A stretch of DNA of 39,519 bases from the NCBI GenBank assembly GCA_019695095.1, contig JAIBAQ010000039.1:1-39519 (forward strand). The letters run 5' to 3'. The translations under genes were made by a program, and so were the position numbers. The notes below the pieces were generated by a model. It ran no database searches. It was not told where the DNA came from and was given only the letters and a program-made list of their open reading frames with translations. This document shows positions 25,524 through 38,286 of the stretch, one piece after another. The stretch is from Candidatus Hydrogenedentota bacterium (lineage in GTDB: Bacteria; Hydrogenedentota; Hydrogenedentia; Hydrogenedentales; SLHB01). Every line of letters begins with the position of its first letter. Position 1 is the first letter of the stretch.

Positions 25524-26690
25524 ATGAAATACATCCAGCGAACTCTCGAAAGTCAATTGAAGCTGGCCGCAAAGCAGTTTCCCTCTATACTTCTCACAGG
25601 TCCCCGTCGTGCCGGAAAGACGACTCTGCTTCGACATCTTGCACCGAAGGCGAGTCACGTGTTGCTGGAAAGTCCCGATGTCGTGGCCCAGGTCCGGTCA
25701 GACCCCAATGGGTTCCTGGATAGTCTTTCGTTTCCTGTCGTCCTCGACGAGATACAGAACACGCCCGAGCTGTTCGCGTACATTCGTGCGAGGATTGATC
25801 GGCAACCGCGCAAGATGGGACAGTGGTTGATCACCGGTTCTCAGGAAGCTCCTCTCATGCAGGGTGTCTCCGAGTCTATGGCTGGCCGGGCCGCCGTCTT
25901 TCAACTGCTGCCGTTCTCTCGCAGTGAGAGTCCCAGAGTTTCTGTATTCAGGGGTGGTTTTCCCGAAGTGATTCAGCGTCCCAAAGCGGCCGATATCTGG
26001 TTTCGGTCGTACATCCAGACCTACTTGGAGCGAGATGTCCGTTCGGTAACATCGATCCGCGATCTGTCGACGTTTCGGCGTTTCCTGGCGTTGCTGGCGA
26101 GCCGGTGCGGTCAGATTCTTAACAGAACCGACATGGCCGCGCCGCTGGGTGTTTCTGTCCCCACCATTTCTCAGTGGCTGAGCATTCTCGAGATCACCGG
26201 CCAGATACTGCTTGTTCCGCCGTTCTACGAAAATTTCGGCAAACGGATCATGAAGTCGCCAAAGCTCTACTTCATGGATACGGGACTTCTGTGCCATCTG
26301 TTGGGAATTGCCAATGAGAAGAGCTTGGGCGAATCGGTCTTTCTTGGCCCGGTTTTCGAGTCCTTTGTCGCCTCGGAAATTGTGAAACTACAGATTCATT
26401 CGGGGAGATCCAAATCACTGTATTTCTTTCGTGATCTAAAAGGCTTGGAAGTCGACTTTCTTGTCCCGCTCGGGGACCGTAGAGTGGTCCTACTGGAAGC
26501 GAAAGCGACCAAGACGCCGAATCCCAATATGGCTAAACCGGCGGATAGGCTCGCTGCTTCAATGAAAGGCTACGACGCTAAATCGTATGTCGTATGCAAG
26601 GCCCACACGAAGGAGAACCTTTATCCCGGATTGACGCCTCAGACTAAGATTGCAGCGCTTGACGATCTGGCAGATGTGCTAGGATACTGA
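25524..26690 (+). CDS. DUF4143 AAA ATPase
   Basis: A 388-residue protein: N-terminal AAA_14 ATPase with Walker A LTGPRRAGKTTLL (residues about 23-35) and Walker B VVLDEIQN (about 72-79), the sensor region ITGSQEAPLM, a central winged-helix-like stretch (LNRTDMAAPLGVSVPTISQW) and the C-terminal DUF4143 domain with LYFMDTGLLCHLLG. The last part, GLEVDFLVPLGD...LLEAKAT, has the spacing of a PD-(D/E)XK nuclease core. These ATPases are widespread accessory genes of unknown role. It is inserted between ftsH and folP, after the ftsH terminator, and has its own AT-rich palindromic promoter, which marks it as an independently regulated, probably acquired gene. Confidence 0.88.
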   Translation: MKYIQRTLESQLKLAAKQFPSILLTGPRRAGKTTLLRHLAPKASHVLLESPDVVAQVRSDPNGFLDSLSFPVVLDEIQNTPELFAYIRARIDRQPRKMGQWLITGSQEAPLMQGVSESMAGRAAVFQLLPFSRSESPRVSVFRGGFPEVIQRPKAADIWFRSYIQTYLERDVRSVTSIRDLSTFRRFLALLASRCGQILNRTDMAAPLGVSVPTISQWLSILEITGQILLVPPFYENFGKRIMKSPKLYFMDTGLLCHLLGIANEKSLGESVFLGPVFESFVASEIVKLQIHSGRSKSLYFFRDLKGLEVDFLVPLGDRRVVLLEAKATKTPNPNMAKPADRLAASMKGYDAKSYVVCKAHTKENLYPGLTPQTKIAALDDLADVLGY

Positions 26691-31289: not shown

Positions 31290-31406
31290 CACGTTGGAGA
31301 TTAGCCCTCGGAGATGACGGACAGGCAATCAATGGAAGCGCAAGCCGTAAAATATTCCGTTTACGAAGCCTTCGACAATCCGCAGGTCCGCAATCTGCAC
31401 CGAAGC

Positions 31407-31468
31407 GGCGGAAAACAGGGACTGACACAAGCGAAGCGAAGCGGAGACGTGTCTGTCCCTGCTTTCCG
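31407..31468. repeat. Hairpin repeat B
   Basis: It has the same arms and loop as the hairpin at the centre of the MITE copies (left arm starting GGCGG, right arm GTGTCTGTCCCTGCTTTCCG). It stands alone, without the MITE flanks. Confidence 0.8.
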
Positions 31469-31484
31469 GGGTCAAAACAAATGC

Positions 31485-31548
31485 GGCGGAGACCAGGGAC
31501 TGACACAAGCGCAGCGAAGCGGAGACGTGTCTGTCACTGCTTTCCGCC
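31485..31548. repeat. Hairpin repeat C
   Basis: A direct tandem copy of repeat B, 16 bp downstream, with a substituted left arm (GAGACC for AAAACA) and one change in the right arm (GTCACT for GTCCCT). The loop matches copies A and D. Confidence 0.8.
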
Positions 31549-31601
31549 CCATAAGTATGGGGCAGTTCGCCTGGCAGTTGCACCGGTTGTAGAGGGGTAA
31601 T

Positions 31602-31652
31602 ATGACCGAGGGACAAAACACCGAGTGGAGGGCGTCCTGTCGCGATGAGTAA
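31602..31652 (+). pseudogene. 5' stub of an AlbA_2-domain (RecG-like / DNA-binding) gene
   Basis: ATG at 31602 opens MTEGQNTEWRASCRDE then TAA. This closely resembles the conserved first residues of AlbA_2-type 'putative DNA-binding / RecG-related' proteins (pattern MTE-x-QN-x-EWK ... RDEYLKW). The stop stands where the family has Tyr, and the following sequence is instead the start of the RhuM gene, whose ATG lies inside the stub. It looks like a deletion junction between two neighbouring accessory genes. The call rests on a 16-residue match recalled from the family. Confidence 0.5.
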
Positions 31653-32154
31653 GAAGAATCAAGCCCTCTTGCCATCCGGTTCATTGCTGATCTACGAGTC
31701 CGAGGACGGACAGATCAAACTGGATGTGCGTCTGGAACGGGAGACCCTGTGGTTGACGCAGGCGGACATGGCCCGGCTGTTCGGTTGCTCCGCGGACAAT
31801 ATCTCCCTGCATCTGAAGAACATCTATCAGGAGGGGGAACTGGCCGTGGAGGCAACTGCCGAGGAATTCTCGGTAGTTCGAGCAGAGGGCGCGCGCAAGG
31901 TCGCGCGCCGTATCACGTTCTACAACCTCGACGCCATTATCTCGGTCGGCTACCGGGTGAAGAGCCTGATCGCCACGCGGTTCCGCATCTGGGCCACGCA
32001 ACGTCTGCGCGAATACATCGTGAAGGGCTTCGCCATGGACGACGAGCGCCTGAAACAAGCGGGGGGCGGCGGGTACTTCGAGGAGTTGCTGGCCCGCATC
32101 CGGGATATCCGCTCCTCCGAGAAGATTTTCTGGCGCAAGGTCCTGGACATCTAG
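31645..32154 (+). CDS. RhuM family protein, C-terminally truncated
   Basis: A 169-residue protein matching the N-terminal half of RhuM family proteins (usual length about 330): LIYESEDGQIKLDVRLERETLWLTQ, then the helix-turn-helix-like ADMARLFGCSADNISLHLKNIYQEGEL, EGARKVARRITFYNLDAIISVGYRV and RIRDIRSSEKIFWRKVLDI. The stop TAG is part of CTAG at the edge of the MITE copy at 32151, where the family normally continues IYA. The rest of the gene is missing, so insertion with deletion is likely. RhuM proteins are often found in restriction-modification or defence loci; their function is not established. Whether the half-protein is active is unknown. Confidence 0.82.
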   Translation: MSKKNQALLPSGSLLIYESEDGQIKLDVRLERETLWLTQADMARLFGCSADNISLHLKNIYQEGELAVEATAEEFSVVRAEGARKVARRITFYNLDAIISVGYRVKSLIATRFRIWATQRLREYIVKGFAMDDERLKQAGGGGYFEELLARIRDIRSSEKIFWRKVLDI

Positions 32155-32313
32155 TGTAGTGAATCGTAATTGGGGCAACATATTGGAAGACCCCAGGAAG
32201 AGTCAAAAGCGGCGGAAAACAGGGACTGACACAAGCGCAGCGAAGCGGAGACGTGTCAGTCCCTCTTTTCCGCCTCCCAAATAAGATGCCATCAGTATGA
32301 GTCACTCCACTAG
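32151..32313 (+). mobile_element. MITE-like repeat, copy 2 (163 bp)
   Basis: Bounded by CTAG on both sides. The left end CTAGTGTAGTGA and the reverse complement of the right end CTAGTGGAGTGA match at 11 of 12 positions, giving terminal inverted repeats. The centre holds hairpin D. It is the inverted counterpart of copy 1 at 125-285. Either CTAG is part of the inverted repeat, or it is a duplicated 4-bp target as made by IS5-type transposases. It has no reading frame. Its left edge ends the RhuM gene. Confidence 0.75.
32211..32274. repeat. Hairpin repeat D (inside MITE copy 2)
   Basis: Arms 32211-32232 and 32253-32274 pair at 21 of 22 positions, from GGCGG to CCGCC, around a 20-nt loop containing AGCGCAGCGAAGCGGAGAC. 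Confidence 0.85.
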
Positions 32314-32369: not shown

Positions 32370-32376
32370 TGAGTAA

Positions 32377-32529
32377 GCCGAAGACAGACTGAAGAACGGC
32401 GGACCCATCGTCATTCGCGCATCCGGCGCCGAACCCATCCTGATCGTCATGATGTAACACGACCAACTCAAAGCAGCCGAGGCCCTCGCCGATCAACTCG
32501 CCAAGAGCGTCGCCTCGCTCACGTAACAC
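32377..32529 (+). pseudogene. Decayed copy of the glmM 3' end
   Basis: The 153 bp align without gaps to glmM 31140-31292 at about 80% by eye. In frame it reads NGGPIVIRASGAEPILIVMM, then TAA where glmM has CAA (Gln), then HDQLKAAEALADQLAKSVASLT and a stop at the same place as in glmM. The first half is not continued upstream, so this is an orphan fragment. Confidence 0.88.
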
Positions 32530-32630: not shown

Positions 32631-35600
32631 CTAATAGAGCTTGAGTTGACTATGGGGAATCAGCAGGCGAACACGCTTGTTCTTTGCGCGGTATCGTTCA
32701 ACGACCTCACGTCTTTCGAGGACAGTAAGGCATCGCATCACCCGCTTCGCAAACTGCAATCGAGGATTACCACGCGTCAATATACGCAACTCCCTGAGGA
32801 CGCGCGCCGTCAACGATTTCTCCGTGCAAGATTGATTTGAACACTTCGAAAGAATACGAAGAATAGCGTCCTGAATTTCTGAGGATGCCACATCTTCGGG
32901 GCGATGTCCGGAAGCGGCTGATCTGCCCGAGAGATCATCGTCTTTGTCGTTGCGGTCTTCCTCTTCATCGCCTTCGCATTCTTCTTCTTCGTCATTTTCC
33001 TCAACAGCGTCAGAATCCTTGTCTTCACGTTCCCTTCTGTCCGATTCCTCTTCGTCCTTATCTCGCTCAAAGGGACCACAAGAGTCACCCCAATGGGGGA
33101 AAATAGACCGCTCTTCCAGCAACCTCCACAGACTCTTGAGTGCTTCATCTTTGTTTGAATAGAAAGCTGATTCCTTGACGCGGAAGAATTCCCACCCGCA
33201 ACGCTCAAGTTGCCTTTGCCGATTCATGTCGTCTTCATAACGGTCAGCGCCATGCCATCTGTCGCCATCGCATTCGACCGCGAGACGCGCCTGACCTCCC
33301 TCAACCACGAGATCTATCCGTTTCCCCGCAACTTCATACTGCGGAACGACACTGAATCCAAGACGGAGTAGTTCTAGCGCCACATCGACTTCAAACCAGC
33401 TTTCAAAGGGTTCTCTTGGCTTTTCAATCGTGCGATTAGCCTGAAATGCCAGTTGTTCCAGTTCGTCACGGCTAATCCCGGCTATGTGTCTTGGCTTCGT
33501 ATTTTCAAAGAACTCAAGCAGCCTTCGACGTAGACACGACGAACCGAGATCGTTGGAGGTGACGGAATGGAAGAGAATCATCATGTCTTGCGCACGGCTG
33601 GCGGCAACGTTAAAGCGTCGCTCGTCCGCTGCCCTCGTAAGCGAGCCGATTCTTTCATTACTGGCCGCGACGAGTGAAAGCAACATGATATTTCGCTCGT
33701 CACCCTGGAAACTATAAGGATTTCCGCAGATCAAGCGCCGCCGTTCCATTTCCTCTGCGCCCAAGCGTTCGAGAAGTCGGCTCTCGATCAAAGCCGCTTG
33801 CGCTTCACCTTGAAGAACAACAACACCCACAGACATTCCGTCATATCGCGAATTTCGACAGATTTCGACAACCCGTTGAACAATGGCGTCCGCTTCTGGG
33901 GGATTAGTTGCACGGCTGTCAGAACCCTCACGATATCCACCACTCACGAGGACATGTTCAAGTGGTGGCAATCTGTCTGGTCCATACTGCCGTAATGGTA
34001 TCAATGTGCCTCGGTAACAAAGATCATTGCTGAAGCGTATGATTTCCGGCATGCACCGGAAGTGCTCACGCAAGGTAATCTGGCGGGTGCCGTATCGAAG
34101 CTTAGCCTGATCGAAAAGGCTTGCATCCCTATGAAAAGCATCCTTGTGCTCGAAATCGTAAAGGAATCTCTCCATTAGTTGAAAGACTTCATCCCTATTA
34201 ATGAAACCTTCTTCTGGGCTGATCTGCTTGTCATCTCCAACAATAACGACCTTTTTGCCCAAATAAAAGAGAGGGAGTCCCTCAAGTCCACACTGAGAAG
34301 CTTCGTCAACAATGATGACATCAAAGATGCCCGGCGCGGGGTCCACCGTGTCCCAGACCCGGTGCAGTGGCATAACCCACGCAGGCACCGCCACGCGACA
34401 TTCGTTCAAGTGTTGCTGAGCTTCGCGTCTGTGTCGCGGCGCATGTCTTCCCGTCCCTCTTCCAAGCCGCTGCATGGATTGCTGCCAAGCTACCATGTGG
34501 CGGCGATGTTCTTCTTTGAGTCGCGAGAAACAGAATGACCAAGCATGAAGCGAAGCGAGTTTTGCGATATTTCGATTTATCTCGTCCTCGATCTGTTTGG
34601 CACGCTGGGTGAGTGCTGCAGCATCCTCCTGTCGGATGTAATCCTCAATCCAGTATCGCGCCTGAGCCCAATGCCAAGCGTCGTCAATATGCTCGATACG
34701 CGCCTCCCAATGTGGGTCATCACAAGTTTGTTTCAGGTAATCCGCGAATTTCGGATACTGGCGGCGTAAGTTTGAGAAATACGCATCCGCTTTCTGAAGA
34801 TGCTGTCGCCGTTCCTCAATTTCGCGAATTCTATCTAGACTCTGCGCAACCCCATTTATGTCACGGTCTCGAATCGCTTTGAGTAAATCACTCGTCACCG
34901 GATGCGCATTGTCTTTGCTGGCCACACGGGAAAGTTCACTCTCAATGCACTTGATTTCCCCGACAACCTGGCGCTTTTTAATACAAGCCAGTGAATGACG
35001 GCACGAGGAGATTACGCTTTCGACTTGGGATTCGTCGGCCCAAACGGGCTCGTCCATCGGCAAGCATTGCCTTATCGCTTCACGGCATTTGGAGATAAGC
35101 CCCACAAGTGACAAGGCATCCTCGAGTCCATCACGTAGAGACTTTAGCCCAGTCAGTTGAAGAGTATACGGCCCATGTACCTTGTCGCTTCTCCCCATCC
35201 AAAAAGACCATGCCTTTTCGCATTCAATGCGCACGTGCAGTGTGTCGGCAAGGGCTGAAAAATGCTCGACTGTAGTGCAAGGGCGGCCTCCTATCTTCAC
35301 TGACTTGATCACGTAAAGCCGCTCTCTCACCGCTCTCGGGCGGAAGAAAGACCAACCCAGTTTCCCGCCATTTTCCATGTAACCTTTTAGCTTACAAGCG
35401 TCTTCATGCAACGTCCTGATATCGGCACTATCCGGAAATTCGACACGGGTTCCGTCTGCGACGGAAACAAGTTTCTCGATGGACGAAATGACACCTTGTG
35501 TGACATGGAGATGCTCATCCCACATGCGAGTATTGCCGCCTAAGATATCGCGTACAGCAGAGTTCATCCATGAATACGGTGCCCTACGCAGCCTGCTGAG

Positions 35601-37529
35601 GGTGCTGCGGAAATCAGACAACGCATCTCGAATTGCCGCTATGGTCGTGGGATCGCTTTTTCGTATCAACATATCGACAACGCATTCATCGGATCCACTT
35701 GCCGCTCTACGCTCTTCTTCAATTGCATTTGTCTCATTCTCTACCAGATTGGCAAAGCGTTCGATGGGTAGATCCCCTTCGAGAAGGGCAAGGCTCATCT
35801 CTCTTCGCTTTTCTGGCGTGAATTTACGCAGGGTCATAAGGATGCCGCACAAGTCTCTTACGGATATGGGACATGGCTTATCCAAGGGGGCAAAGTCCAT
35901 GAACCATTCGTATTTAGCCCGATTACGGTTTACGGCTTCGGCAATTCTAGCGGCCGTCCCGCGATAGGTCCCTTCCGCAACAGATTGCGTATGCGTCTCA
36001 GATTCGCGAATAGTGCGGAGCCGCCTGTTTACTTCGGACTTCTCCTCGCGAAGTTCTCGGACACGGATTTCAAGTTCCTCGCACTCTTGCTTGTCACGCT
36101 TCTTGTTCCTTCTTTCATACTTGCCAAGAATGCCGCCAACGCTAGATTCGAGTGAACGGCGCTCATCCGGGCCATTGCCAAGCAAATTAATGCAGAGAGG
36201 ACGCAATTCATCTGGGACATGTCTTTCAAGGACCTGAAGTGCACGAGGCGTTTTGGCCGTAATCAGCGTTCGTTGTCCAGTTGCGAGAAGATGACAGATT
36301 AGGTTGGCGATGGTATGAGATTTTCCAGTTCCGGGCGGCCCCTGTACCAGTACGCCATTTGTCGTCTGAATCGTGTTGACTATGCGGCGCTGCTCATCGT
36401 TTGATGGTTTTGGAAAGAAAGTCTCTCCATCAAGCATCGCGCTCGGCTCTCTCGGCCTATCATCCCCTTCCTGGTCATCCTTAGCGCGAATCTCTGCAAG
36501 GTCACCAAATTCACCTGGGATGTCTTCGCCTCTTTCAATCTGTTCCTTGATCCGCTTCAACGCTTCGGTAAGACCTTTGGAGGAACGCTTTCGCAAAATC
36601 AAGGCAGGAGCATATTCGACAATTGGTCTTTCTGTCGCATGGATGACTTTTGACTCCAAGGAATCGTCATATTCTCCCTGGGAACTAATTGAACGCACCA
36701 AGATTTCGAGGGCCTCTTGGATACACTCTCTTTCCCATGGGTCGTCTTCGGCGGCATTCAACGACTCTTTCGCGGTTTCTTCAGCGCGTATTGGCTGTTC
36801 TTCGATGGTCAGCATATCGAGTTCCGGCCGGAGTCTGGCTCCCTCGGCATGAGGTCGAACGGTGAATCTGCCCAACTGCGCTTCAAATTCCAATGTGGCG
36901 TCAGCGACGATCAAGTGGCGCTGGACGTGTTGCCCAGTGGGCGTCCTCCAGGTAAGCAAACCCAAGCCGAGAATAAGCTCAAATTCTTCGCCGAGCCGCA
37001 ACTGCTCTTGATGAATGGCAAAGAGATCCGAATAGACCTTGTGTACTTCTTCCCATGCATCGTGCTCTTCCGTCCAAGGTAGCCACTTCTCTTCCAGATA
37101 TCTTTCCCATACTTGTTGGACTTCCGGATGCTCGTCAAGCCGTTCGGTTAGTGCGATGTATTCAGGCTGATCCGCACCTTCGTGCCAATCAGGGTTCCTA
37201 GACTGTCGGGTGATCTCTGGAGGGAGTTCGGGCAAATTGCCCTTTTCTCGTAGCAATGACAGATTCGCCCACTCCCTACATTGAGTAGGAGTAACGGGCA
37301 ATTTCGGTTCTGGCCGGTTCTGCACTTCTAACCATTCGGCAGCATCGTCCTCTTCACCATGTCCCCATGCTAGAGTGAAACAGCCCTTCTGGTGCGGAAC
37401 TCTGGAGAACCAGAGGACTCTAGCTTCATCGATACTACGAGTAATTTTCGCGCCTACACTCGACAAACGAATAAGGTACTCAACCAAGCGACCAGCTTTT
37501 TCTACAGATGACATTGGCTCTTGCCTCAT
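32631..37529 (-). CDS. Giant superfamily-1 helicase with C-terminal PD-(D/E)XK (Vsr/MTES_1575-like) nuclease
   Basis: A 1632-residue protein, the largest in the window. A family-specific N-terminal region occupies residues 1-380. The UPF1-like helicase core (AAA_11/AAA_12 type) has Walker A VQGPPGTGKSHT (Lys403), a long helical insert of about 650 residues, motif II IIVDEASQ (Asp1075, Glu1076), motif III VVIVGDDKQISPE and late motifs SFQGDERNIMLLS and RRFNVAASRAQ (about 1250-1310). Next comes a nuclease domain of the Vsr/DUF559-like type: KRIDLVVEGG (Asp1406) and LAVECDGDRWHG (Glu1419, Asp1421). A very acidic linker (about 1480-1550) and a small basic, winged-helix-like tail follow. The base composition looks more AT-rich than in its neighbours, suggesting transfer. 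Helicase-nuclease giants of this build occur in defence islands; its role against phages or plasmids is inferred. It may also start at ATG 37514. Confidence 0.88.
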   Translation of the reverse strand: MRQEPMSSVEKAGRLVEYLIRLSSVGAKITRSIDEARVLWFSRVPHQKGCFTLAWGHGEEDDAAEWLEVQNRPEPKLPVTPTQCREWANLSLLREKGNLPELPPEITRQSRNPDWHEGADQPEYIALTERLDEHPEVQQVWERYLEEKWLPWTEEHDAWEEVHKVYSDLFAIHQEQLRLGEEFELILGLGLLTWRTPTGQHVQRHLIVADATLEFEAQLGRFTVRPHAEGARLRPELDMLTIEEQPIRAEETAKESLNAAEDDPWERECIQEALEILVRSISSQGEYDDSLESKVIHATERPIVEYAPALILRKRSSKGLTEALKRIKEQIERGEDIPGEFGDLAEIRAKDDQEGDDRPREPSAMLDGETFFPKPSNDEQRRIVNTIQTTNGVLVQGPPGTGKSHTIANLICHLLATGQRTLITAKTPRALQVLERHVPDELRPLCINLLGNGPDERRSLESSVGGILGKYERRNKKRDKQECEELEIRVRELREEKSEVNRRLRTIRESETHTQSVAEGTYRGTAARIAEAVNRNRAKYEWFMDFAPLDKPCPISVRDLCGILMTLRKFTPEKRREMSLALLEGDLPIERFANLVENETNAIEEERRAASGSDECVVDMLIRKSDPTTIAAIRDALSDFRSTLSRLRRAPYSWMNSAVRDILGGNTRMWDEHLHVTQGVISSIEKLVSVADGTRVEFPDSADIRTLHEDACKLKGYMENGGKLGWSFFRPRAVRERLYVIKSVKIGGRPCTTVEHFSALADTLHVRIECEKAWSFWMGRSDKVHGPYTLQLTGLKSLRDGLEDALSLVGLISKCREAIRQCLPMDEPVWADESQVESVISSCRHSLACIKKRQVVGEIKCIESELSRVASKDNAHPVTSDLLKAIRDRDINGVAQSLDRIREIEERRQHLQKADAYFSNLRRQYPKFADYLKQTCDDPHWEARIEHIDDAWHWAQARYWIEDYIRQEDAAALTQRAKQIEDEINRNIAKLASLHAWSFCFSRLKEEHRRHMVAWQQSMQRLGRGTGRHAPRHRREAQQHLNECRVAVPAWVMPLHRVWDTVDPAPGIFDVIIVDEASQCGLEGLPLFYLGKKVVIVGDDKQISPEEGFINRDEVFQLMERFLYDFEHKDAFHRDASLFDQAKLRYGTRQITLREHFRCMPEIIRFSNDLCYRGTLIPLRQYGPDRLPPLEHVLVSGGYREGSDSRATNPPEADAIVQRVVEICRNSRYDGMSVGVVVLQGEAQAALIESRLLERLGAEEMERRRLICGNPYSFQGDERNIMLLSLVAASNERIGSLTRAADERRFNVAASRAQDMMILFHSVTSNDLGSSCLRRRLLEFFENTKPRHIAGISRDELEQLAFQANRTIEKPREPFESWFEVDVALELLRLGFSVVPQYEVAGKRIDLVVEGGQARLAVECDGDRWHGADRYEDDMNRQRQLERCGWEFFRVKESAFYSNKDEALKSLWRLLEERSIFPHWGDSCGPFERDKDEEESDRREREDKDSDAVEENDEEEECEGDEEEDRNDKDDDLSGRSAASGHRPEDVASSEIQDAILRILSKCSNQSCTEKSLTARVLRELRILTRGNPRLQFAKRVMRCLTVLERREVVERYRAKNKRVRLLIPHSQLKLY

Positions 37530-37770: not shown

Positions 37771-37986
37771 TTACGTCCACGTCATCTTCAGATCGCGTTT
37801 GGTGGCGCGGCAATCCTGAAGATAGAGGTTGATCAGGGTCTGATAGGGGATGCCTTTCTTCTCGGCCTTCTCCTTGAAGTACTCGATGACATCCGGGTCG
37901 AGACGAAGCGTTATCTGCTTCTTCAATCGCTGCGCGTAGGGATTCTTCCGCGACTTCATTTTGGTCAAGTCATATTCGGCTTTCAC
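37771..37986 (-). CDS. CopG/BrnA-like antitoxin, no visible toxin partner
   Basis: A 71-residue protein. I chose GTG at 37986 because AGGAG lies 8 nt upstream and the protein then begins MKAEYDLTKMKSRKNPYA, the standard start of this CopG-type family; the open frame reaches GTG 38016. The body LKKQITLRLDPDVIEYFKEKAEKKG is a ribbon-helix-helix DNA-binding motif and ends in the conserved PYQTLINLYLQDC. Such proteins are antitoxins or repressors of type II toxin-antitoxin pairs, usually next to a BrnT-like toxin gene. None is recognisable within several hundred bases on either side, so it is an orphan. It sits between the helicase and a repeat-rich gap, on the same strand as the helicase. Confidence 0.8.
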   Translation of the reverse strand: MKAEYDLTKMKSRKNPYAQRLKKQITLRLDPDVIEYFKEKAEKKGIPYQTLINLYLQDCRATKRDLKMTWT

Positions 37987-38286
37987 GTCAAGAACTCCTA
38001 TAGAGTCTGGATTCACTTTCCGTACTACTATGTGAAAGAGTCTGTGCAGGCTTCGCGAATCTCGCCGTGTTCCCCGCGGTTTGAAGTTACTCGCGTAAAG
38101 TTGATTCTCTTATCGGAGTTCATCGGTGTGAATCGGTGGTTGAATCATCTTGGTCGCGGCGACATAACTACAATGTAACTACACGCTCCTTTCCGTCAAC
38201 CCTTCACATGGGCATGGCGGCTCACATTCCACTGGCAACCCGCGCCCGGCGTCTTGGTCGGCAACGCCTCGCTGATGCTGGCTCCC

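Follow-up and report, generated by a model that had tools for sequence, protein, structure and literature searches.

A 1632-codon gene in the 39,519-nucleotide stretch of Candidatus Hydrogenedentota DNA analyzed here (the window) is best explained as encoding a mobile single-polypeptide antiviral effector, in which a predicted UPF1-like motor is joined to a tethered Vsr-type nuclease (probability about 0.8, judged from sequence). That the gene serves in antiviral or anti-mobile-element defense of some kind is, on the same footing, very probable indeed. This reading is supported by the mobility of the gene, by the defense genes that adjoin its relatives, and by a cargo site in phages; the single-protein immune helicase-nuclease proposed in an earlier note on this DNA is thus well supported. 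Proteins that pair a UPF1-like helicase with a Vsr-type nuclease recur in defense systems, and the question they pose is how foreign nucleic acid is chosen without a modification partner.

The gene, its protein, and its surroundings

The gene is a single intact open frame present in one copy in its own genome, and random sequence of the same composition would contain such a frame with a probability of ~1e-35. The earlier note had read it as a UPF1-like helicase fused to a Vsr/MTES_1575 nuclease, and the frame, the Pfam families, and the residue numbers are all borne out. Pfam places AAA_11 at residues 376–513, AAA_12 at 1135–1319, and REase_MTES_1575 (PF18741) at 1379–1470, the last with an E-value of 4e-28 (97.8 bits vs. 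a cut-off of 38.2). In an alignment with 22 strongly diverged homologs (lowest identity about 20–25%), K403 of the Walker A motif, D1075 and E1076 of the DEAS box, and D1406, E1419, C1420, and D1421 of the nuclease are invariant, including the acidic residues that the earlier note had predicted to be catalytic. K403 and residue 1075 are 672 residues apart because a poorly conserved insert of ~470 amino acids sits within RecA1. Taken with the profile and fold matches below, the AAA_11 and AAA_12 domains identify the protein as a predicted UPF1-like SF1 helicase; the Pfam score and the D...E-x-D core likewise place its C-terminal part in the REase_MTES_1575 (Vsr-type) nuclease family (Table 1).

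Table 1. Predicted parts of the helicase-nuclease, with positions in the window
Feature	Positions	Strand	Basis
Whole gene, 1632-aa UPF1-like SF1 helicase and Vsr/MTES_1575 nuclease fusion	32631..37529	minus	
Residues 1–375, N-terminal region specific to the family	36405..37529	minus	Structure model
Residues 376–540, first half of RecA1 (AAA_11)	35910..36404	minus	Pfam, alignment
Residues 397–404, Walker A GPPGTGKS	36318..36341	minus	G397, G402, K403 invariant in 22 homologs; 404 is S or T
Residues 541–1010, large insertion of low conservation that separates Walker A from DEAS	34500..35909	minus	Alignment
Residues 1011–1340, DEAS half of RecA1 and RecA2 (AAA_12)	33510..34499	minus	Pfam, model
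Residues 1075–1078, Walker B DEAS	34296..34307	minus	Invariant in 22 homologs
Residues 1379–1470, REase_MTES_1575 (Vsr-type PD-(D/E)xK) nuclease	33120..33395	minus	Pfam, model
D1406, predicted catalytic	33312..33314	minus	Alignment
Residues 1419–1421, ECD, predicted catalytic (E1419, D1421)	33267..33275	minus	Alignment
Residues 1482–1541, acidic linker, low model confidence	32907..33086	minus	Sequence, model
Residues 1550–1623, predicted C-terminal winged helix	32661..32882	minus	Alignment, model

Two structure models, one of the N-terminal part and one of residues 1000–1632, were of middling confidence (mean pLDDT 70). The RecA2 part of the second matches the folds of SETX (the best match, E 1e-9), Sen1, Dna2, IGHMBP2, and UPF1, and PDB profile searches with the helicase return SEN1, SETX, UPF1, and DNA2. 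The nuclease (about residues 1379–1473) is predicted to run helix, three strands, helix, strand, helix, as in a PD-(D/E)xK nuclease, and its closest solved relative by sequence is 3hrl (E 5e-4). Beyond it the model has a disordered acidic linker and then a winged helix of three helices and a beta wing, which is missing from some homologs (e.g., L025). The N-terminal 375 residues are modeled as one 48-residue helix (135–182) followed by beta strands; a UPF1-type stalk and 1B barrel would be compatible with this model and is offered as a guess. Comparison of this N-terminal model with PDB folds gave no significant match.

As the earlier note had noticed, the gene is more AT-rich than its neighbors, with a G+C content of 51.4% compared with 56.3–58.9% in other 4.9-kb stretches of the window and a third-position G+C of 0.51 compared with 0.61–0.80 in the upstream genes. 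The genes beside it are glmM, a RhuM fragment, a BrnA-like gene, and panD, confirming its position between two housekeeping genes. Among the gene leftovers described around it, the RhuM-family fragment (31645–32154, 169 aa, which aligns with the first ~100 positions of a 252-position Pfam model) and a BrnA/CopG-type antitoxin-like gene (37771–38016) were found again; a test of flanking frames detected no AlbA_2. The best PADLOC match of the RhuM fragment is the candidate system PDC-S05. The BrnA/CopG-like gene is the nearest upstream gene, on the same strand and 242 bp away, and it may serve as a leader gene instead of being debris, because a helicase-nuclease relative in Variovorax is overlapped at its start by a small gene whose antitoxin-like match is weak.

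The repeats that the earlier note had seen around the gene are not specific to an island. The 80-nt palindromic repeats (three near the gene; 31400–31557, 32204–32283) belong to an interspersed family with 57 sites spread over the whole genome, and are ruled out as island boundaries. The region has been rearranged, given that 155 nt of the glmM 3′ end recur as a degenerate copy (83%) at 32376–32529, next to where the helicase gene ends, and that glmM, followed by pdxJ in 14 relatives, is separated from it here, pdxJ being on another contig of the same genome. Elsewhere in the window, an AAA_14/DUF4143 ATPase gene between ftsH and folP (25524–26690) is a relative of an ATPase near one homolog (L101).

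Mobility, phage cargo, and defense neighbors

Within the phylum, 10 of 68 genomes carry the gene (21 of 386 relatives overall), and it is missing from most genomes of its own phylum and family. Sequence identity does not track kinship, being 67% and 66% in genomes of other families and 64% in one genome of its own. A tree built on the core of helicase and nuclease pairs G366, from another phylum, with G003, from the window's own family, as sisters (support 98/93) and puts a Chthoniobacterales copy inside the same clade; two further copies from the own family (G009 and G014) fall in a separate clade (support 100/100). A scan of genome contigs, in which coverage of named organisms was thin, returned one close relative (the Chthoniobacterales MAG) and one distant one. 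Some copies are broken, by an in-frame TAG (G043) or, on a Deinococcus plasmid, by IS701. The chromosomal copies of the clade share no neighbor apart from a small HTH_17 gene that some of them have, and the survey of homolog neighborhoods proposed in the earlier note found no conserved housekeeping context. Judged by tree and distribution, inheritance is patchy and crosses phyla, and the gene family is mobile.

The gene is also carried by phages. A single-protein scan of viral contigs found no relatives; an alignment-based search of viral contigs found two, 65% (L129) and 70% (L130) identical to the window protein. Both are flanked by phage genes (tail sheath, neck, major head, minor head, portal, and D12 methyltransferase), and in both the helicase-nuclease lies between the minor head and methyltransferase genes, runs in the direction opposite to the structural genes, and has its start overlapped by an HTH_17 gene. 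Searching with the minor-head gene gave about 46 sibling contigs. In eight of them the site is empty, the methyltransferase following the minor head after 68–80 bases. When one empty contig (L166) is compared with a filled one (L164, the same contig as L129), the left flanks share 98.3% identity and the right flanks 98.6%, and about 5.2 kb replaces some 30 bases. The D12 methyltransferase belongs to the phage backbone, because it is present beside the empty site too, and it is ruled out as a modification partner on that ground.

In another sibling (L191), the interval is taken up by a related HTH_17 gene, at 63% identity, together with a methyltransferase of Type II (PADLOC 2e-195) and a restriction enzyme of the BsuBI/PstI kind (PADLOC 8e-157, Pfam 3e-61). 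Because this contig stops before the flanking methyltransferase and carries a longer minor-head variant whose frame is truncated at 519 codons, the cargo is placed in the same interval without being proven to the base. A part of the same restriction enzyme occurs in L173, and the cargo of L169 is a DUF4160 gene, which is not recognized as defense. The helicase-nuclease and a Type II restriction-modification (R-M) system are thus alternative cargo in the same phage interval, as seen in two contigs bearing the former and one bearing a complete R-M system. Closely related phages in which the site is empty, holds the helicase-nuclease, or (in a sibling) holds R-M are a natural experiment and a matched set for testing the protein. 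In many sibling phages (e.g., L175, 9001–13572) the same interval is filled by an extension of the minor-head (Phage_Mu_F) protein to 1523 aa, the extra sequence of which has no match in Pfam.

There are also signs of passage from phage to chromosome. In a genome of the window's own family (G006), a 71-codon minor-head remnant (69% identical) lies 22 bases downstream of the chromosomal copy, tail-to-tail with it as in the phages, and the same phage family occurs in three genomes of the phylum (sheath 62–64% identical, minor head 68%). The window copy retains no recognizable phage sequence and no HTH_17 gene. We tentatively suggest, at somewhat less than even odds, that these genes form an unnamed subfamily of single-protein, modification-independent restriction enzymes that travel as phage cargo, swap with Type II R-M behind a related HTH_17 gene, and enter chromosomes by phage decay. 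The phage site shows one entry route of such genes into chromosomes of a phylum that has been little studied.

Within the phylum of the window, the chromosomal copies mostly lie among ordinary genes. Relatives with defense neighbors are more distant (mostly 27–35% identical) and on plasmids. On Acinetobacter plasmids (L039, L043, L114) a distant relative ends a BREX operon, directly after pglZ-brxL and 63 bp past brxL. Other relatives adjoin Wadjet-type TIGR02678–TIGR02680 genes (Streptomyces), R-M and AbiE genes (Sphingobium), or Type I R-M genes (a fusobacterium), and csm genes lie near the one in G295. In a neighbor scan at 1e-15, 128 neighbor proteins met 73 PADLOC families and 125 control proteins met 25, mostly generic helicases and regulators; the controls were a small set of single 15-kb stretches of the same contigs with some genes omitted, and the PADLOC models are partly generic, so that the excess weakly supports the defense reading. 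In one subclade (L031, L042, L100, L135), a small PC4/YdbC-type gene adjoins the helicase-nuclease as a recurrent partner. On two virus-classed contigs (L131, L134), a 39% identical relative is found beside a protein that looks, by eye, to be of the PAPS-reductase type and beside other possible defense genes.

Relation to known systems

The best matches in profile libraries are all defense proteins: PDC-S37 (3e-55), MkoC (4e-43), and Hhe (1.5e-31) in the PADLOC search, and ProA (8e-63). The last (“anti-phage protein ProA”, NF058533), probably the Prometheus system, is likewise a giant single protein with a helicase followed by the same C-terminal region. However, the match reaches 212.5 bits compared with an equivalog cut-off of 1500, the profile is 1903 aa long, and its N-terminal part is unmatched; relatives of the window protein score 171–278 bits. 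PDC-S37, a PADLOC candidate and the best PADLOC match, agrees with it in order and spacing along about 1100 residues, at ~190 bits, but the first ~350 residues fall outside. The match does not span the whole profile, the best stretch being 868–1406 of 1550 (298–1435 in a near homolog), and all homologs scanned score just 161–252 bits. The literature library searched gave no paper on PDC-S37 and no mechanism paper on ProA/Prometheus. Hhe (NF042953), an SF1_Upf1 defense protein (PMC10925250), shares the UPF1-like helicase and its match runs on across the nuclease region, but at 133.6 bits compared with an equivalog cut-off of 2000; DUF4011, the N-terminal domain of Hhe, has no Pfam match in the window protein to E 0.1. 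Because the scores fall far short of the ProA and Hhe cut-offs and the PDC-S37 match begins only at about residue 350, the gene was not filed under any of them. It appears from these comparisons to be a distinct subfamily that would work like ProA, Hhe, and PDC-S37.

The kinship with Mokosh suggested earlier holds in part. MkoA and MkoC share a UPF1-like SF1 helicase within an anti-phage system, but closer relatives exist: PDC-S37 and ProA have higher scores, both (and Hhe) match the nuclease region too, and the Mokosh match ends at the helicase. Mokosh reportedly has a PLD nuclease; C-terminal to the helicase of the window protein Pfam has no PLD match, and MTES_1575 is found there instead.

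The different nuclease module proposed in the earlier note is not new, because fusions of UPF1-like helicases and Vsr-type nucleases have already been published (PMC3710099, PMC11090510). In CoCoNuT III-B, CnuH joins a UPF1-like helicase, in which a large insertion follows Walker A as here, directly to a Vsr-like nuclease, and has RNA as its predicted target (PMC11090510). Its wHTH is N-terminal, however, and the winged helix of the window protein C-terminal; CnuH also works with McrBC-type CnuB/CnuC and with CnuA, none of which is recognized beside the window gene, and no McrB-type GTPase was recognized among the genes on either side. The MTES_1575 giants, described in 2013, combine an SF1 helicase, the same Vsr-type nuclease family, and a C-terminal wHTH in one protein, and were proposed to act in modification-independent defense (PMC3710099). 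They differ in carrying HEPN and transglutaminase-like domains, for which the window protein has no Pfam match to E 0.1.

Mechanism and competing explanations

In the mechanism we favor, the UPF1-type SF1 motor would load on and translocate along invading nucleic acid, most likely ssDNA or processed phage DNA exposed in replication or transcription, and the tethered Vsr-type PD-(D/E)xK nuclease would then cut it, with the C-terminal winged helix helping DNA binding. Recognition may rest on nucleic-acid structure or context and not on methylation, because no methyltransferase travels with the gene. We infer both that the protein restricts phage and that its target is DNA rather than RNA, and give this detailed scheme, in which DNA is the likelier substrate, an even chance of being right.

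The nearest competitor is an RNA-directed or abortive-infection effector, with a motor that scans RNA and a nuclease that cuts RNA or host nucleic acid on sensing infection, as proposed for CoCoNuT. UPF1-like helicases work on RNA as well as on ssDNA, the best matches of RecA2 are the RNA helicases SETX and Sen1, and the CnuH of similar build has a predicted RNA target (PMC11090510). Dna2 and IGHMBP2 match RecA2 comparably, however, the winged helix suggests DNA binding, and the McrB-type partner was not recognized. Vsr-type nucleases are, moreover, usually DNases. We consider the RNA-directed alternative unlikely, if the most serious of those weighed here. It is a little less likely still that the gene is a solo variant of ProA/Prometheus, Hhe, or PDC-S37 and should carry that name: the shared helicase-nuclease order and overlapping matches over 400–1100 residues speak for it, and the low bit scores, the ~350 N-terminal residues outside the best PDC-S37 stretches, and the unmatched DUF4011 speak against it.

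The fold resemblance of RecA2 to Dna2, and the fact that Vsr is a repair nuclease family, could instead suggest a Dna2-like housekeeping enzyme of DNA repair or replication that is mobile by chance. This is very improbable for a gene that is absent from most genomes of its phylum and family, is inherited across phyla without conserved neighbors, is broken by a stop or an IS in some copies, and serves as optional phage cargo interchangeable with R-M. That same carriage, behind an HTH_17 leader gene and on the strand opposite the structural genes, together with the phage-gene remnant beside the G006 copy, would also fit a weapon that strikes competing phages during lysogeny or infection and is selected for the phage rather than the host. 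We doubt this explanation, given that most copies found lie in chromosomes or on plasmids that lack phage genes; it also overlaps with the preferred reading of an antiviral effector, inasmuch as prophage-borne defense protects the lysogen too.
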